NCBI GenBank assembly: GCA_019347575.1
Contig: JAHWKY010000026.1
Location: 1-64,000 of the forward strand
Source: Actinomycetota bacterium
Lineage (GTDB): Bacteria; Actinomycetota; Nitriliruptoria; Nitriliruptorales; Nitriliruptoraceae
Length of the DNA: 64,000 bases
Direction of reading: 5' to 3'
Position 1 is the stretch's first letter. The number at the start of each line of letters is the position of its first letter. A program made the position numbers and the translations under genes. This document shows, one piece after another, positions 28,302 through 36,605 of this stretch. The notes beneath the pieces were generated by a model. That model saw nothing but the letters and a program-made list of their open reading frames with translations. It made no database searches and was not told the origin of the DNA.

Positions 28302-29248
28302 CGCCCCGACCGTCCGGCCGCGACGCTGACGACCGCTCCGATCACCGCTGCGACCATCGCGGCCCCGGTCGCCAACGCCGAGCGCCAGCTCGAGCCGACC
28401 CACTCCGTCGGGTCGACCGGGTCAGGCGGCAGGTTGTAGACCTCGGGGCGGTCGGTGAGGAGGAAGAAGGCGTTGAGCTGGCCGGTCCCGGGCAGCTGCG
28501 CCTCGTCCGCGCCGTACAGGTACGCGCTCGACACGCCCCGCTCGTGCAGGACCGCGACGCGCTCCTGGGCCAGCTCGACGAGATCCTCGACCTCGCCGAA
28601 CACGATCGAGTCGGTCGGGCACGCCTTGGCGCAGGCCGGCTCGAGGCCGCCGTGGAGGCGGTCGTAGCAGAGGGTGCACTTGAACGCGCGGCCATCGTCC
28701 TCGTTGCGGTCGATGACGCCGAACGGGCAAGCGACCACGCACATGCCGCAGCCGTTGCAGATGTCGGGCTGGACGAACACCGAGTCGTACTCGGTGCGGA
28801 TGATCGAGCCGGTCGGGCACACGTCGAGGCAGCCCGCGTGCGTGCAGTGCTTGCACACGTCGCTCATCATCAGCCACCGGAACGGATCCTCACCTGTCTG
28901 AGCGACAGCCGGTGAGACGTCTTCGCCGAACCAGCTCAGGTCCACGGGGCCCTCGCGCTCCACGAAGGCGACGTGGCGCCAGGTCGACGCCCCGAGGTCG
29001 CTGGTGTTGTCGTAGCTCTCGCCGGTGAACAGGAAGCCGTCGTCGGGGAGCTGGTTCCACTGCTTGCACGCGACCTCGCACGCCTTGCAGCCGATGCACA
29101 CGGTCGTGTCGGTGAAGAAGCCGTAGGCCCCGGGTGGGTGCGCGGTGCCCCGCCCGGGCTGCCACGCGTCGACGCCGACCAGCTCGGAGGACGTGCGCAG
29201 CTCGCGCGACTCGTCGGGGCCCGGCAACGTCTCGGGTGAGGTGGCCAT
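28298..29248 (-). CDS. Formate dehydrogenase iron-sulfur subunit (FdhB/HybA type)
   Basis: 316 residues with four 4Fe-4S motifs: CIGCKACEVACK, CKHCTHAGCLDVCPTG, CNGCGMCVVACPFG and the split CTLCYDR...CAKACP. A C-terminal membrane helix (about 290-312) anchors it next to the NrfD subunit. ATG 29248 overlaps the fdhA stop by one base (TGATG). Electrons from formate would move from FdhA through this protein to the quinone pool. Confidence 0.93.
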   Translation of the reverse strand: MATSPETLPGPDESRELRTSSELVGVDAWQPGRGTAHPPGAYGFFTDTTVCIGCKACEVACKQWNQLPDDGFLFTGESYDNTSDLGASTWRHVAFVEREGPVDLSWFGEDVSPAVAQTGEDPFRWLMMSDVCKHCTHAGCLDVCPTGSIIRTEYDSVFVQPDICNGCGMCVVACPFGVIDRNEDDGRAFKCTLCYDRLHGGLEPACAKACPTDSIVFGEVEDLVELAQERVAVLHERGVSSAYLYGADEAQLPGTGQLNAFFLLTDRPEVYNLPPDPVDPTEWVGSSWRSALATGAAMVAAVIGAVVSVAAGRSGR

Positions 29249-32200
29249 CAGGTCTCCTCGTCCTGTTGCGTCTGTCCCGCGCGCACGCCGTGACGGCCAC
29301 GCGGCCGCTCGAGCCCGGGGAGGTCGCGGCTCACGTCGGGGATGGTGTCGGCGAGCAGGCCCGACGTCACGACCCGCCGGCCGCGCGAGCGCCGCCCCGG
29401 CTGGATATCGGCGGTGAGCGCCTTGGACTCCTGGATGGACACGTTGGGGTCGGCCACGAACCCGATCAGCTCGTTGACGGTGTCGCCGGTCACGAGCCCG
29501 AGGTAGGACCAGTGGTAGGGCAGGCCGATGGTGTGCACCACGCGCCGGCGGCCTTTGCCGACCCGCAGCGGCCGCACCCGTGGAGTGACCAGCACGCGAC
29601 ACTCGATCTCGCCCCGCGCGGTCGAGACCGTGGCCCAGCCGCCGTTCTCCAGGCCGCGCTCACGAGCGAGCTCGGGGGAGACCTCGCAGAACAGTTCCGG
29701 CATCAGCTCGCTCAGCCACCCGACCCAGCGGCTCATCCCCCCGGCGGTGTGGTGCTCGGTGAGTCGGTAGGTCGTCAGCGCGTAGGGGTACCGAGGGTCG
29801 TCGTAGGCGCGGTGCATCGGGTTGTCGGCGCGCGCCCACTCCATCCGCGCCGGGTTGCACTGCTGGCCGTACAGCAGGTTCTCGACCGGCGACTCCTGCG
29901 GCTCGTAGTGGGTCGGCAGAGGCCCGTCGAGCAGGCCGGTCGGGACGAACAGCCACCCCTTGCCGTCGGTCTGCATGATGAAGGGCGAGTCACCGGCGAG
30001 CGCATCGGTGCCCGATGCATCCTCGGGCGGCTCGTACCCGGGTGGGCGGCCGGGGATGAAGTCGGTGCTGTCGTAGCCGGTCCACTCCTCCTCGTCGGCG
30101 TCCCACCACACGTAGCGCTTGCGCTCCGACCACGGGTGCCCGTCGGGGTCGGCGGACGCGCGGTTGTACAGGATCCGGCGGTTGTCGGGCCAGGCCCAGG
30201 CCCACTCCGGGGCGACCCAGTTCTGCTCGTACCACGGCTTGCGCCGGTCGGTCTGGTTCACGCCGTCGGCGAACGCCCCCGAGTAGATCCAGCAGCCACT
30301 GGCGGTGGACCCGTCGTCGGCCAGGTCGGTGAACGAGGACACCAGGTCGTCATCGTGGATGACGCCGCGACTCGAGCGCTCGCTCCAGCGCCAGCCGTTG
30401 ATCTCGCGCAGCACCGCCTCGGCGACGGGCTCGTCGTGCGGCCCCTGCGTCGGGTAGTCCCAGGTGAGGTGCTGGATCGGTCGGTCCTGGGGGTCCTGGC
30501 TGTCGGCGTAGAGGGCCTTGAGCCGCCGGCCCAGGTGGTAGACGAAGCCCAGCTCGCTGCGGGCGTGGCCGGGTGGCTCGACCGCCTTGTGGTGCCACTG
30601 CAGCATCCGCTGGGTGTTGGTGAAGCTGCCGTCCTTCTCGGTGTGGTTCGCCGCGGGGAAGAAGAACACCTCGGTGTCGCAGTCGGCCGGGGACACCTCG
30701 TCGCGCTCGAACTCGGGGCCGGTGCGCCAGAACTCGGCGGACTCGGTCGGGGCGAAGTCGCGCACCACGCACCACTTCAGGTTGCGCGCCGCGGCACGGT
30801 GCAGCGCCCCGTGCATCGAGCCGACCACGGGGTTCTCGCCCATGATGAAGTAGCCCTCGACGTCGCCGTCGGCCATCGCCGCGACCGTCGTCATGTGGCT
30901 GTGGTCGCCGGACTGGCGCGGCAGGTACTCGTACGCGAAGTCGTTGTCGGGCTGGGCGTGATCGCCGAAGTACGCCTTGAGCAGGCTCACCGCGTACTTG
31001 CCGAAGTTCGCCCACCAGCCCGCGCCGGCCTCGTTGTAGGCGATGTAGTCGTCCAGCGAGGTGTCGTGGTCGGCGTGCGGCATCGGCAGGTAGCCCGGCA
31101 ACAGGTTGTAGAGGGTCGGGATGTCGGTGGAGCCCTGGATCGAGGCGTGGCCGCGCAGCGCCAGGATGCCGCCGCCGGGACGCCCGATGTTGCCCAGCAG
31201 GAGCTGCAGGATCGAGGCGGTGCGGATGTACTGCACCCCCACCGTGTGTTGGGTCCACCCGACCGCGTAGCAGAAGGCCGAGGTACGCTCGCGCCCCGAG
31301 TTGTCACACAGCGACGCGGCGACGCGGAGGAACAGCTCCTCGTCGATGCCGCAGATCTCGGCCACGACGTCGGGCGTGTAGCGCTCGAAGTGCCGCTTCA
31401 GCACCTGGAACACGCAGCGCGGGTGCTGCAGCGTCGGGTCGGTCTCCTCGTGGGTGACGTCCTTGCCGCGGTGTGCCTCCGCCCCCGAGGCGAACATCTC
31501 GCGCTGGCCCGCCGACGGGGCCACCTCCGTGCCCTGGTACTGCCACGAGCTGGGGTCGTACTGCCCCTCGTCCGGATCCCAGCCGCTGAAGACGCCGTCG
31601 AGGTCCTCGGTGTCGACGTAGTCCTCCCGGAGCACCACCGCGGCGTTGGTGTAGTGCACGACGTAGTCGCGGAAGTACCGCTCCTCGGTCAGCACGTGGT
31701 TGATCAGGCCACCGAGGAACGCGATGTCGGTCCCGGCCCGCAGCGGGACGTGGATGTCAGCGACCGCAGAGGTCCGCGTGAAGCGCGGGTCGACGTGGAT
31801 CACGGTGGCTCCGCGGCGCTTGGCCTCCATCACCCACTGGAACCCCACCGGATGGCACTCCGCCATGTTAGAGCCCTGGATGACGACGCAGTCGCTGTTG
31901 GCCAGGTCCTGCTGGAAGGTGGTCGCGCCGCCGCGGCCGAAGGAGGTGCCCAGACCGGGCACCGTGGAGCTGTGTCAGATCCGCGCCTGGTTCTCGATCT
32001 GGATCGCGCCCAGCGCGGTGAACAGCTTCTTGATGAGGTAGTTCTCCTCGTTGTCCAAGGTGGCGCCGCCGAGGTGGGCGAACCCCAGGGTGCGGTTGAC
32101 GCGTACGCCGTCGGGGCGCTCGACCTCGAAGGTGCGGTCGCGGGTCTGCTTGACCAGTTCGGCGACGCGGTCCATGGCCCACTCGAGGTCGACCGGCTCC

Positions 32201-32547
32201 CAGTCCTCGCTGCCGGGGCGGCGGTAGAGCACGGTGCGGGGCCGGTGGCTGCCGGTGACGAGCTGGAGCGTCGCCGCGCCCTTCGGGCAGAGCTTGCCGC
32301 GCGAGACGGGCGAGTCGGGGTCGCCCTCGATGTCGGTGAGCTCGCCGTCCTTGGTGTACAGCAGCTGGCCGCAGCCGACCGCGCAGTAGGGACAGACCGA
32401 ACGTGCGACGCCGTCGGCCTCGTCGCTGCGCGGGGCCAGCGAGGCGGAACGTTCGCTGCCGGCGGTGTCCACGAGCAGCGCGGTCAGGTCGCGGTGGCGC
32501 AGCTGTCGCACGACAGGCCAGCGTTCGAGCCGCTCACCCAGACCCAC
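29248..32547 (-). CDS. fdhA: Formate dehydrogenase catalytic subunit, selenocysteine-containing
   Basis: 1099 residues when the in-frame TGA at 31977-31975 is read as Sec (U191). It would otherwise be miscalled as two genes. The first 190 codons hold the 4Fe-4S site (C52, C55, C59, C87) and end ALGAIQIENQARI. Then comes U-HSSTVPGLGTSFGRGG, the invariant Sec/Cys neighbourhood of molybdopterin formate dehydrogenases. The rest gives the bis-MGD binding domains (GSNMAECHPVGF, CDTEVFFFPAANHTEKDGSF, LLYGQQCNPARM). No Tat motif is seen at the N-terminus, so it may face the cytoplasm. GTG 32547 has GGGAGG upstream. selB and selA lie next door. Confidence 0.95.
31945..31977 (-). promoter_or_regulatory. 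Bacterial SECIS element of fdhA with its UGA codon
   Basis: On the minus strand the UGA (31977-31975) is followed by 11 nt and then GGTGCCC-GGTCT-GGGCACC (31963-31945), a perfect 7-bp stem with a GGTCT loop. The E. coli fdhF SECIS has the same spacing and an AGGUCU loop, the part bound by SelB. This makes recoding rather than termination the clear reading. Confidence 0.93.
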
Positions 32548-33005: not shown

Positions 33006-34865
33006 TCAACGGACCGTGCGGGTCGCGCCGTCGAACGCGGTGACGCCCGCTGCGTCGAGGTGCTCGAGCAGCGGGATGGCGTACTTCCTCGACGTGCCGA
33101 GCGCCTCCCGCGCCTCCGAGGCGGTGAACGGTCCCTGGGTCGCTGCCAGCGAACGCAGGAGCGCCGCGGCATCGTCCACCGCGGTGCGGGTGAACGCGAC
33201 CGGCCCACAGCGGACCACCACGCCATCGTGCACGACCCCGGTGAGCTCTTCGTGGCTCATGCCGAGCTCCCGGGCGGTCGCCGCGAGGTCCGGTGGGCCG
33301 AACGGTTCCTCCCCGAGGCGTCGCAGCAGCTCGGTCCGTCGTCGCTCGCGGGCCTCGTCACGTCGAGGCGCGAAGGAGGCCAGCGCGTACGCCGACCCTG
33401 ACCGGCGCAGGTCGCCTGACTGAGCGAGGTGATCGATCAGCTGGTCCGCCGCCTCCGGAGGGCAGCCAGCGGCGGTCGCGGCGGCGGTCAACGCGCCCCG
33501 TCCCACGCCGGGACTGGTCGGCTCTGCCTCGTGGTGCCTCGAAGCGGCAGCCGCGACTGCACCCGCCCACGCCGCGAGGTGGCCCGGCTCGACCAGGTGG
33601 GAGCCGACCGTCTCGACTCCCGGTGAGGGCTCGTCGACACCGGCGGCAGCGAGGGCGACGCCACGGCTCCACGCCCCGCCGTGTGCCAGGAGCAGCGGAC
33701 GCAGCCGTGCGTCTCGCGGCGCGTGGCGCACGGCCTCGAGTTCGCTGACGCGCTCGAGCCGGGCGTCGGTACCGCGGATGCGCCCGTCCGGCAGCGGGTC
33801 GAGCACCTCCCCCCCGCCGCACGTCGCACGTCGGCCGGCATCACGCAGCACGAATCGGTCGCCAGCCGCGATGACCACGGGGCGATCGAGGTCGAGGCGT
33901 ACGTACCCCTCGCTCCCGCCGGAGAGGTCCTCGCCGAGCAGTGGGTGGACCGTCGCGGTCACCTCCGCCGCTCCGGTGTGGACGTGCCACGCCCCCGTCC
34001 TGCCGACCTCCTGTCCCGGTAGCACCCGGACCCACCCGTCGAAGGTGCTGGAGACGACCCAGCGGTCAGCAGGGCCTGCGACCACGACGTGGCCTCGTCC
34101 GAGGTCCTCGCGTGCCACCCCGGCGAGGTTGAGCGCGACACGGCTGTCGGGCTCGGCGCGCTCGATGGGCTCGCCCAGCGACTGCATACCGCGGATGCGG
34201 GTCGTCCCGCCCTCGGGGAGCAGCGTCACCTCGTCGCCGACCGCGAGCACCCCCCCGGTCAGGGTGCCGGTCACGATCGTGCCGGCGCCGCTGATGCTGA
34301 ACGTGCGGTCGACCCACAGCCGCGGTCGGTTCTGGTTGCGGGGTCGGGGCGCGGCGGCGAGGCGCGACGCCAGGCTGGCGCGGAGCTCGTCGAGGCCGTC
34401 TCCGGTCACGGAGTCGACGAGGTGCACCGGTGCGCCACGGAGCGTGGTCGCTGCCAGCCGCTCCTCGACGTCGGCCGCGACCTCGAGCGCGCGATCCTCG
34501 CCAGCGAGCCGCAGCTTGGTGACCGCCGCGACCGCCCCGTCGACCTCGAGCAGGTCGAGGATGTCGAGGTGCTCCTGCGACTGCTCCGACCAGCCGTCGT
34601 CGGCGGCGACGACGAACAGCGCGAGCCGGACCGCGCCCGCCCCGGCGAGCATGTTGGGCACGAACCGCTCGTGGCCCGGGACGTCCACGAACGCGACCGT
34701 GACCGTGCGACCCGCGACCTCGAGGTCGGTCCAGACGAACCCGAGGTCGATCGTCAGGCCGCGGCGGCGCTCCTCCTCCCAGCGGTCAGGCTCCATGCCG
34801 GTGAGCGCGCGGAGCAGGCTCGACTTGCCGTGATCGACGTGCCCTGCGGTCGCGACGACCCGCAC
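33006..34865 (-). CDS. selB: Selenocysteine-specific elongation factor SelB
   Basis: 619 residues. GTPase domain with GHVDHGKSS (8-16), the RRRGLTIDLGF switch and DVPGHE, followed by SelB domains II-III (GTIVTGTLTGG) and C-terminal winged helices (from about 390) that read the SECIS RNA. The G4 position, normally NKxD or TKxD, reads TKLRLAGED: the guanine-contacting Asp is missing or shifted, which is odd. GTG 34865 lies 2 nt after the selA stop. It delivers Sec-tRNA to fdhA (and perhaps to the small gene at 36367). Confidence 0.95.
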   Translation of the reverse strand: MRVVATAGHVDHGKSSLLRALTGMEPDRWEEERRRGLTIDLGFVWTDLEVAGRTVTVAFVDVPGHERFVPNMLAGAGAVRLALFVVAADDGWSEQSQEHLDILDLLEVDGAVAAVTKLRLAGEDRALEVAADVEERLAATTLRGAPVHLVDSVTGDGLDELRASLASRLAAAPRPRNQNRPRLWVDRTFSISGAGTIVTGTLTGGVLAVGDEVTLLPEGGTTRIRGMQSLGEPIERAEPDSRVALNLAGVAREDLGRGHVVVAGPADRWVVSSTFDGWVRVLPGQEVGRTGAWHVHTGAAEVTATVHPLLGEDLSGGSEGYVRLDLDRPVVIAAGDRFVLRDAGRRATCGGGEVLDPLPDGRIRGTDARLERVSELEAVRHAPRDARLRPLLLAHGGAWSRGVALAAAGVDEPSPGVETVGSHLVEPGHLAAWAGAVAAAASRHHEAEPTSPGVGRGALTAAATAAGCPPEAADQLIDHLAQSGDLRRSGSAYALASFAPRRDEARERRRTELLRRLGEEPFGPPDLAATARELGMSHEELTGVVHDGVVVRCGPVAFTRTAVDDAAALLRSLAATQGPFTASEAREALGTSRKYAIPLLEHLDAAGVTAFDGATRTVR

Positions 34866-34867
34866 CG

Positions 34868-36223
34868 TCAGTCGACCCCCAGCGCCGCCCGGACCGCAGC
34901 CACGACGGTCTCGTCCTGGCTGGGGGCGACCGTGCGCAGGTCGAGCAGCACCAGCCCATCCTCCACGCGGGCGACGATCGGCGGCTCGCCGCTGCGAAGG
35001 CGAGCGGCGAAGCCGTCGGCATCAGCCACGCGCAACGCGACCGCCCACGACGACAGATCGGCGCCAGGCATCGAACCGCCTCCCACCAGCGCGGTGCTCG
35101 GCTGGGCGTCGGCGTCGGTCCCGATCGCGTCGGCGACGGTGCGGGCCCGTGCGTGGAGCGTCTCGGGATCGGCGTGGAGCATCGCCCACGTCGGCAGATC
35201 GAGCGGGACGTCGTTGCGCAGATGCGATTCGAGGGTCGCCTCGAGTGCGGCTCGCTGGAGCTTGTCGATGCGGAGCGCTCGCGCGAGCGGGTGTCGCGAG
35301 CAGCGCAGGATCAGGTCGTCCCGGCCCGCGATGATCCCCGCCTGCGGACCACCGAGCAGCTTGTCGCCACTGAAGATCACGAGGTCGGCTCCCTCCGCCA
35401 GCGCTGCCTCGACGGAGGGCTCTCCGGCGAGTACGCCGCGGTGGTCGTGCAGCAGACCCGAGCCGATGTCGTAGGCGAGCGGAACGCTGGCGTCCTTGGC
35501 GACGCGGGCGAGCTGCTCGACGCTCGGGGTCTCGGAGAAGCCCACGACGCGGTAGTTGGACTGGTGCACCTTGAGGATCAGTCCGGTGCGGTCGCTGGCC
35601 GCGGCCTCGTAGTCGCCGGGGCGCGTGCGGTTGGTGGTGCCGACCTCGTGCAGGCGTGCTCCCGACGCCGCCATGATGTCGGGCAGTCGGAACGAGCCGC
35701 CGATCTCGATCAGCTCGCCGCGACTCACGATGGTCTCGCGGCCTCCCGACAGCGCGGCGAGGACCAGCACGAGCGCCGCCGCACCGTTGTTGACGACCGT
35801 CGCGGCCTCCGCCCCGCACGCCTCCGCCGCGAGCCGACCGACGTGCCGGGTGCGCGACCCGCGCGCTCCCTCGTCGCGCTCGAACTCCAGGGTCGTGTAG
35901 CCCGCCGCCTCCTCGACGGCCCGCCGCGCGTCCAGGGACAGCGGGGCGCGGCCGAGGTTGGTGTGCAGCACCACCCCCGTGGCGTTGACGACGCGCGTGA
36001 GCCGACCACGGCGTCGCGCGGCGAGGTCCTCGGTGGCGACGGCGAACAGCTCGTCGGGGCGCGGCACCGGACCGCCGTTGCGGACGCGCTCGCGCGCCTC
36101 CGCCAGCGCACGTCGCAGCGCCTCGGTGACGGCGCGCCGACCGTACTGCTCGATCGGGGCGACGGCCGCGTGCCGCTCCAACAGCATCCCCAGCTGGGGC
36201 AGCCGCGACAGGTCCGGTGTCAT
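34868..36223 (-). CDS. selA: L-seryl-tRNA(Sec) selenium transferase SelA
   Basis: 451 residues from ATG 36223. PLP fold with NATGVVLHTNLGRAPLS, VNNGAAALVLVLAAL and the PLP lysine K288 in FSGDKLLGGPQAG. Converts Ser-tRNA(Sec) to Sec-tRNA(Sec) with selenophosphate. Two starts are possible. ATG 36223 has the repeat-borne SD and the normal family N-terminus (DLSRLPQLGMLLERH). ATG 36292 is in frame and would add 23 residues encoded entirely by the 69-bp repeat unit. TAGGCT at 36306-36301, 8 nt before ATG 36292, suggests transcription starts right there. Confidence 0.95.
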   Translation of the reverse strand: MTPDLSRLPQLGMLLERHAAVAPIEQYGRRAVTEALRRALAEARERVRNGGPVPRPDELFAVATEDLAARRRGRLTRVVNATGVVLHTNLGRAPLSLDARRAVEEAAGYTTLEFERDEGARGSRTRHVGRLAAEACGAEAATVVNNGAAALVLVLAALSGGRETIVSRGELIEIGGSFRLPDIMAASGARLHEVGTTNRTRPGDYEAAASDRTGLILKVHQSNYRVVGFSETPSVEQLARVAKDASVPLAYDIGSGLLHDHRGVLAGEPSVEAALAEGADLVIFSGDKLLGGPQAGIIAGRDDLILRCSRHPLARALRIDKLQRAALEATLESHLRNDVPLDLPTWAMLHADPETLHARARTVADAIGTDADAQPSTALVGGGSMPGADLSSWAVALRVADADGFAARLRSGEPPIVARVEDGLVLLDLRTVAPSQDETVVAAVRAALGVD

Positions 36224-36292
36224 CGCCTCCCCCCTCGTCGAGGGGGGAGGGGCCGGCGTTGCCGGCCTGGGGGGTGAGTCCGGATCGGTCAT
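36224..36292 (-). repeat. Start-codon-associated palindromic repeat, copy 5 (69 bp, in frame)
   Basis: From ATGACCGAT at 36292 to the base before ATGACACCG at 36223. It carries the same CTCACCCCCCAGG, GCCGGC-AAC-GCCGGC and CCTCCCCCCT...AGGGGGGAGG hairpin, with a longer CGTCG loop and an extra CG before the start. The 4 extra bases make it a multiple of three, so it is translatable as an N-terminal extension of SelA. Confidence 0.88.
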
Positions 36293-36306: not shown

Positions 36307-36366
36307 CTTGTGCGCTCTTCCCTGCCCGTCTCCTAGGCTGGCGACGGCCCGATCCAGGAGACCGAC

Positions 36367-36519
36367 ATGGCTCGCCCGTCGATGCGTGACGTGTTCACGA
36401 ACTGGCGCACCTACGACGCGTCGATCGCGACCAAGCTCCGGTTGTCGGCCAAGAACCAGGCCATCAAGCTGCGCACACGCAGCAACTGTTGCGGTAACCA
36501 CGGCGAGCCCGGCTGTTGA
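36367..36519 (+). CDS. Small Cys-rich protein; candidate selenoprotein (UGA at 36517-36519, tail to 36579)
   Basis: 50 codons to the first TGA. AGGAG (36356-36360) sits 6 nt before ATG 36367. The N-terminal half is basic and helical (SMRDVFTNWRTYDASIATKL). The end is RTRSNCCGNHGEPGC, a compact Cys cluster that I associate with small actinobacterial and Chloroflexi proteins of unknown function. If TGA is read as Sec, 19 more codons follow (QAADRGSGRG, then HHDHPHDEH) to a TGA at 36577-36579, giving a GCU motif and a His-rich tail. A hairpin with a GGTC loop follows the TGA. The gene is divergent from selAB. The short gene is well supported. Readthrough is a hypothesis. Confidence 0.7.
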   Translation: MARPSMRDVFTNWRTYDASIATKLRLSAKNQAIKLRTRSNCCGNHGEPGC

Positions 36520-36534
36520 CAGGCCGCTGATCGC

Positions 36535-36550
36535 GGCTCCGGTCGGGGCC
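36535..36550 (+). promoter_or_regulatory. Candidate SECIS-like hairpin after the UGA of the small Cys-rich gene
   Basis: GGCTCC-GGTC-GGGGCC (36535-36550) forms a 6-bp stem (one T-G wobble) with a GGTC loop that starts 22 nt after the UGA. The fdhA SECIS loop is GGTCT, 19 nt after its UGA. A competing hairpin, GCCGC-TGATC-GCGGC (36523-36537), overlaps it. In DNA this rich in G and C such hairpins arise by chance, so this is suggestive only. Confidence 0.35.
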
Positions 36551-36605
36551 ACCACGACCACCCCCACGACGAGCACTGACGCGTCCGAACGGACGGCGTG
36601 GGTCG

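Follow-up and report, generated by a model that had tools for sequence, protein, structure and literature searches.

Does the TGA codon at position 36517 of the window, as we call the whole 64,000-nucleotide stretch of DNA analysed here, end a gene of 50 codons, or is it read as selenocysteine (Sec)? An earlier note, drawn from the sequence alone, had put the gene forward as a candidate undescribed small selenoprotein beside selA and selB, and the conserved TGA, a covarying hairpin and relatives with TGC in its place now support that proposal. Judged from sequence comparison, the TGA almost certainly encodes Sec, and the gene very probably belongs to a family of small selenoproteins, with Sec at this position, that extends across Actinomycetota, Chloroflexota and Desulfobacterota. 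It is the family that is new; insertion is by the standard bacterial mechanism and not by a new one, SelB being expected to decode the TGA as Sec by way of the GGTC hairpin downstream of it.

Layout of the locus

The elements described in the earlier note are all present as claimed: a Shine-Dalgarno sequence, 50 codons that close with NCCGNHGEPGC immediately before the TGA, and a tail of 19 codons, 16 of which have G or C in the third position (Table 1). Translated with TGA as Sec (U), the product reads MARPSMRDVFTNWRTYDASIATKLRLSAKNQAIKLRTRSNCCGNHGEPGC-U-QAADRGSGRGHHDHPHDEH, and a TGA stop follows at 36577-36579. Profile matches confirm selA and selB on the opposite strand. Downstream of the in-frame UGA of the fdhA-type gene in the same window stands GGTGCCC-GGTCT-GGGCACC, whose loop begins at nucleotide 19, so that both loop distances given in the note, 19 nt for fdhA and 22 nt for the small gene, were borne out by the sequence. 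The two hairpins share a GGTC-type loop and differ in the letters of their stems.

Table 1. Features of the candidate selenoprotein locus and its context (window coordinates)
Feature	Position	Strand	Basis or remark
Shine-Dalgarno AGGAG	36356-36360	+	read directly; six nt 5' of the ATG
Putative selenoprotein gene	36367..36579	+	70 residues; ATG at 36367; translated with TGA=U
Conserved motif CCGNHGEPGC-U (Cys41, Cys42, Cys50, Sec51)	36487..36519	+	74-row alignment
UGA, predicted to be read as selenocysteine	36517-36519	+	TGA in 132/136 homologues, 3 TGC, 0 TAA/TAG
Bacterial SECIS-type hairpin GGCTCC-GGTC-GGGGCC	36535..36550	+	loop start 22 nt past the UGA; covariation, energies
His/Asp-rich C-terminal tail GHHDHPHDEH	36547..36576	+	at least 3 tail His in 38/132 members
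selA (machinery; context, outside the gene)	34868..36292	-	TIGR00474, 498.5 bits
selB (machinery; context)	33006..34865	-	TIGR00475, 277.4 bits
fdhA-type gene (context), in-frame UGA 31975-31977	29248..32547	-	molybdopterin domains in the read-through frame

Conservation of the TGA across three phyla

When public genomes were first scanned with the 50 residues that precede the TGA, 38 loci were obtained, in every one of which PGC was followed by TGA. As such a scan favours close relatives, we built a family profile and ran it against whole genomes; because the profile ends at the Cys before the TGA, it is blind to the codon that follows. The gene was recovered in 46 of 396 Actinomycetota, 25 of 247 Desulfobacterota and 30 of 251 Chloroflexota genomes, or about 10-12% of the genomes sampled across the three phyla, and a search of plasmids returned no match to the family. 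One locus labelled Acidobacteria (L030) proved to fall in the window's own phylum.

Once repeated loci had been removed, 136 non-identical loci were left. The codon after the Cys at the PGC position was TGA in 132 of them, TGC (Cys) in three and degenerate in one (L082). The earlier note had named as a refutation homologues in selAB-free genomes that stop with TAA or TAG right after PGC; nearly all the homologues keep the TGA, and none stops in that way. This pattern lies far beyond chance, since TGA stands at the same place in 132 of the 135 clean homologues and the stem downstream of it covaries.

These counts bear on the contrary reading, which we regard as extremely improbable, that the TGA is an ordinary stop, that the protein ends at PGC and that the hairpin either terminates transcription or is a chance GC-rich structure. 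Such a reading would fit the facts that the conserved core already lies within the 50-residue product, that hairpins past stop codons are common in GC-rich genomes and that the frame of some members ends one codon past the TGA. Against it, neither TAA nor TAG was ever found at this position, though the next in-frame stop past the conserved TGA is itself TGA in just 66 of the same 132 loci.

In a 74-row alignment N30, C41, C42, P48, G49 and C50 were invariant and N12, K23, G43 and G46 nearly so, giving a core of the form N-W...K-[LI]...[RK]-N...CC-G-x-x-G-[EQ]-P-G-C-U. After the Cys-Sec pair there is usually a tail, 1-35 residues long, and some members end within a few codons of Sec. One Chloroflexota subfamily (L131, L133, L137-L140) has a near-fixed tail, U-M-[TS]-x-x-EARAAGL, together with a CGTGC-type loop, the letters of the tail being partly dictated by the hairpin. 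Two tandem copies of the gene occur in L132 and two separate copies in a single genome (G406; L092 and L111). The core of L102, HF-TGA-SCCGHPREPGC-TGA, holds an additional in-frame TGA where relatives carry Gln, which may stem from a sequencing error, from decay or from a second site of recoding.

A covarying hairpin downstream of the TGA

A published model of the bacterial SECIS asks for a G in the first two loop positions, a loop 16-37 nt from the UGA and a minimum free energy of -7.5 kcal/mol or lower (PMC13188914). Each of the 131 readable TGA loci has a hairpin of four or more pairs without interruption, with a GGTC, GGTTC or CGTGA loop that mostly starts 17-24 nt past the TGA. The G that the model asks for was present in 126 of these 131 hairpins, and 83 of the 131, that of the window included (-9.5 kcal/mol), agreed with the model in every respect, energy among them. 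The mean hairpin energy was -9.0 kcal/mol, as against -3.1 for shuffled sequences and -2.7 for neighbouring windows; taking the best hairpin per locus favours strong ones, and the shuffles and neighbouring windows were handled alike.

The covarying GGTC-type hairpin that the earlier note suggested seeking was found in the homologues. Among 39 homologous hairpins with a four-nucleotide loop the covariation score was 0.795, compared with 0.178 for shuffled alignments and at most 0.226 when the stem was slid, and compensatory changes in which both sides were altered occurred in all seven stem pairs; since these hairpins were picked by their loop letters and by having at least four pairs, the percentage paired is biased upward. 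A terminator was rejected as an explanation of the structure: a T-rich run (at least five T in eight nt) follows only one of the 131 hairpins, and the nearly constant spacing between the TGA and the conserved loop likewise speaks against it.

In eleven loci just one codon lies between the TGA and the following stop, as in TGA-ATG-TAG (L067) and TGA-AAA-TAG (L105). All ten that could be read (L046 is masked) have the hairpin beyond this second stop, and selection there therefore acts on RNA. We infer that the second stop is the real end of these proteins, a reading qualified by the fact that some second stops are themselves TGA. The review places bacterial SECIS elements in coding regions (PMC13188914), whereas in these ten members the hairpin lies past a stop codon. 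The family also provides many bacterial SECIS hairpins that covary, about ten of which lie past the stop, as test material for what SelB requires.

Where the tail continues beyond the hairpin, a codon-position test counted 51, 44 and 81 differences at positions 1, 2 and 3 among non-independent pairs, and because the third-position excess is mild, this test taken by itself lends weak support to translation of the tail. Folded alone, the 45 nt past the TGA in the window prefer a different structure, GGCCGC-TGATC-GCGGCT plus a second hairpin (-22.0 kcal/mol); when a ribosome pauses at the UGA, it would presumably cover the 5' arm of this competing hairpin and so free the conserved one.

Relatives with cysteine in place of selenocysteine

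Cys at the position of a UGA is a classical sign of Sec. The replacement of TGA by Cys codons that the earlier note had named as possible support was observed in three relatives, one with CCGNHGQPGC-C-ATGSCSIGPEHPH-stop (L116) and two with CCGHPGEPGC-C-E-stop (L120 and L121), all with TGC for TGA and with 63%, 76% and 70% identity, respectively, to their nearest Sec relatives over the 46-residue core. The hairpin is absent from two of the three and weak in the third (L120, -3.8 kcal/mol), a joint change that counts against an ordinary stop. No selA was found in the genome of L121, and the other two Cys-form genomes have it. Such forms are scarce (three of 135 clean loci), which makes the family a good case in which to ask why selenium is kept.

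Selenocysteine machinery in carrier genomes

A selB gene over the cut-off, judged for the carriers from listed E-values, was present in 42 of 46 Actinomycetota carriers versus 172 of 350 other genomes (Fisher p = 2e-8, uncorrected for ancestry), an enrichment that is again at odds with an ordinary stop. Two of the four Actinomycetota carriers without selB have selA (G149) or a partial selA (G197). Among Chloroflexota, 26 of 27 TGA carriers and 172 of 221 other genomes have selA (p = 0.02). For Desulfobacterota and Chloroflexota together selA was over the cut-off in 48 of 52 TGA carriers and was a fragment in one more; it was not found in the remaining three (G451, G487 and G750), perhaps owing to incompleteness. 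These three, with G071, G371 and G409, are the few carriers without a detectable selA or selB.

In addition to selA and selB in the window, the window's own genome encodes a tRNA-Sec (C8:108287-108378) that scored over the cut-off at 76.8 bits. No selD was over the cut-off in this assembly (G000), the best matches being a ThiL-like gene (C13:21159, L172) and a HypE-like gene (C14:51162, L173), and its absence is probably due to an assembly gap.

Comparison with known selenoproteins

In Table 1 of a 2026 review, where 119 prokaryotic selenoprotein families or subfamilies are listed, no family with a CCGxxG[EQ]PGC-Sec motif could be recognised (PMC13188914). The window protein matched no selenoprotein family of NCBIfam at E = 1 and none over a curated cut-off. 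At the curated cut-offs of Pfam and NCBIfam neither this protein nor the family profile had a match, and 46 members had none of note. A profile search of the PDB returned chance matches only. In the searchable open-access literature the motif strings were absent, save for the letters GEPGC in two unrelated papers; an earlier mention is possible.

It would still be conceivable, if very unlikely, that the gene, though a genuine selenoprotein, belongs as a divergent member to one of the small Cys-Sec families already known, such as KCU-star/DUF466, SaoC, MbdU or TsoC. In favour of this are the shortness of the protein and a Cys-Sec pair that lies at the C-terminus or close to it, as in entries of the review's table (PMC13188914). 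However, none of 46 members matched the NCBIfam models of these families at E = 1, the sole match of any kind was that of one member to TrsS (E = 0.095), and Pfam gave nothing of note. KCU-star (NF033934, DUF466) is likewise a small protein with Cys-Sec at its C-terminal end, an arrangement in which the SECIS must fall entirely or almost entirely beyond the reading frame; in the present family, without an NCBIfam match to KCU-star, the pair comes after CCGxxGEPG and a tail of some length usually follows. SaoC, a Cys-Cys-COOH selenoprotein (NF040734), and MbdU, a metal-binding double selenoprotein (NF045648), share the CU motif (table in PMC13188914), and the name of MbdU proposes a metal context that is a further likeness; the new family has no NCBIfam match to either, contains one Sec and spans more than one gene cluster.

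We consider it rather probable that the family is widespread and nearly Sec-only, that its helical peptide of about 50 residues bears a stand-alone site for redox chemistry or a metal, CC...C-Sec, at the C-terminus, and that the SECIS has come to lie wholly outside the frame in several lineages. With so few Cys relatives, such a family would be missed by methods that depend on Cys homologues, a reliance that the deep-Sep paper itself names as a limit (PMC12013277). Current libraries do not see it either, because gene callers take the UGA for a stop and the protein is very small.

Possible function

An AlphaFold2 model of modest confidence (mean pLDDT 67) consists of two helices (residues 6-15 and 20-37) and an unstructured Cys/Sec end, and a fold search with it gave no match with an E below 9. 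The second helix, with a mean net charge of +4.7, is cationic and mildly amphipathic (moment 0.39 vs 0.29 shuffled). At least three His occur in the tail of 38 of 132 members, a His-rich run lies at the N-terminus instead in 11, and many members have neither. The metal-binding-like tail next to Cys-Sec in the earlier note is thus a common trait of the family and not a universal one. Where present, the His-rich runs suggest that a metal is held near the Cys/Sec site.

We tentatively assign to the protein a thiol/selenol redox centre, a reading to which we give nearly even weight. Mammalian thioredoxin reductase ends in a Gly-Cys-Sec-Gly tail, and the redox reading is preferred because the vicinal Cys-Sec pair here also follows Gly; the Cys-Sec and Cys-Cys pairs and a flavoprotein beside the gene in three loci were counted in its favour. 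The likeness is one of working and not of homology: the pair stands near the chain end in both, and some members read PG-C-U-x-G, whereas the new proteins are stand-alone chains of about 50-80 residues without a flavoprotein domain, and a domain search of the 70-residue window protein found no FAD/NADPH disulfide-reductase domain. By this mechanism the two short cationic helices would bear a flexible site at the C-terminus, where Cys50-Sec51 would cycle between selenol/thiol and selenenylsulfide, as in thioredoxin reductase, Cys41-Cys42 may serve as a second or resolving dithiol, and in many members the His-rich run at one end could keep a metal ion close to the Cys-Sec pair.

It is possible, if somewhat doubtful, that Sec is encoded but serves to bind or transfer a metal, a metalloid or selenium and not in redox catalysis, with CC...C-Sec as a set of four soft ligands and the His-rich run acting as a reservoir. 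The soft-ligand cluster CCGxxGEPGCU, the His-rich tails and N-termini and the want of a constant partner enzyme would suit this role; the many members without a His-rich run at either end do not, and no metal transporter or metalloregulator recurs among the identified neighbours.

Genes nearby encode, among others, malate and isocitrate/isopropylmalate dehydrogenases, fumarase, LeuCD-type subunits and sigma factors, each shared within lineages only, and operon guilt by association was therefore rejected as an indicator of function. Beside the gene, upstream in L026 and downstream in L112 and L113, lies a flavin disulfide reductase of the MerA/Lpd/glutathione-reductase type, a possible electron donor. 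In four Desulfobacterota loci (L027, L086, L094 and L102) a DUF523/DUF1722-like gene lies downstream on the same strand, that of L094 with a PRK10167-like match in NCBIfam.
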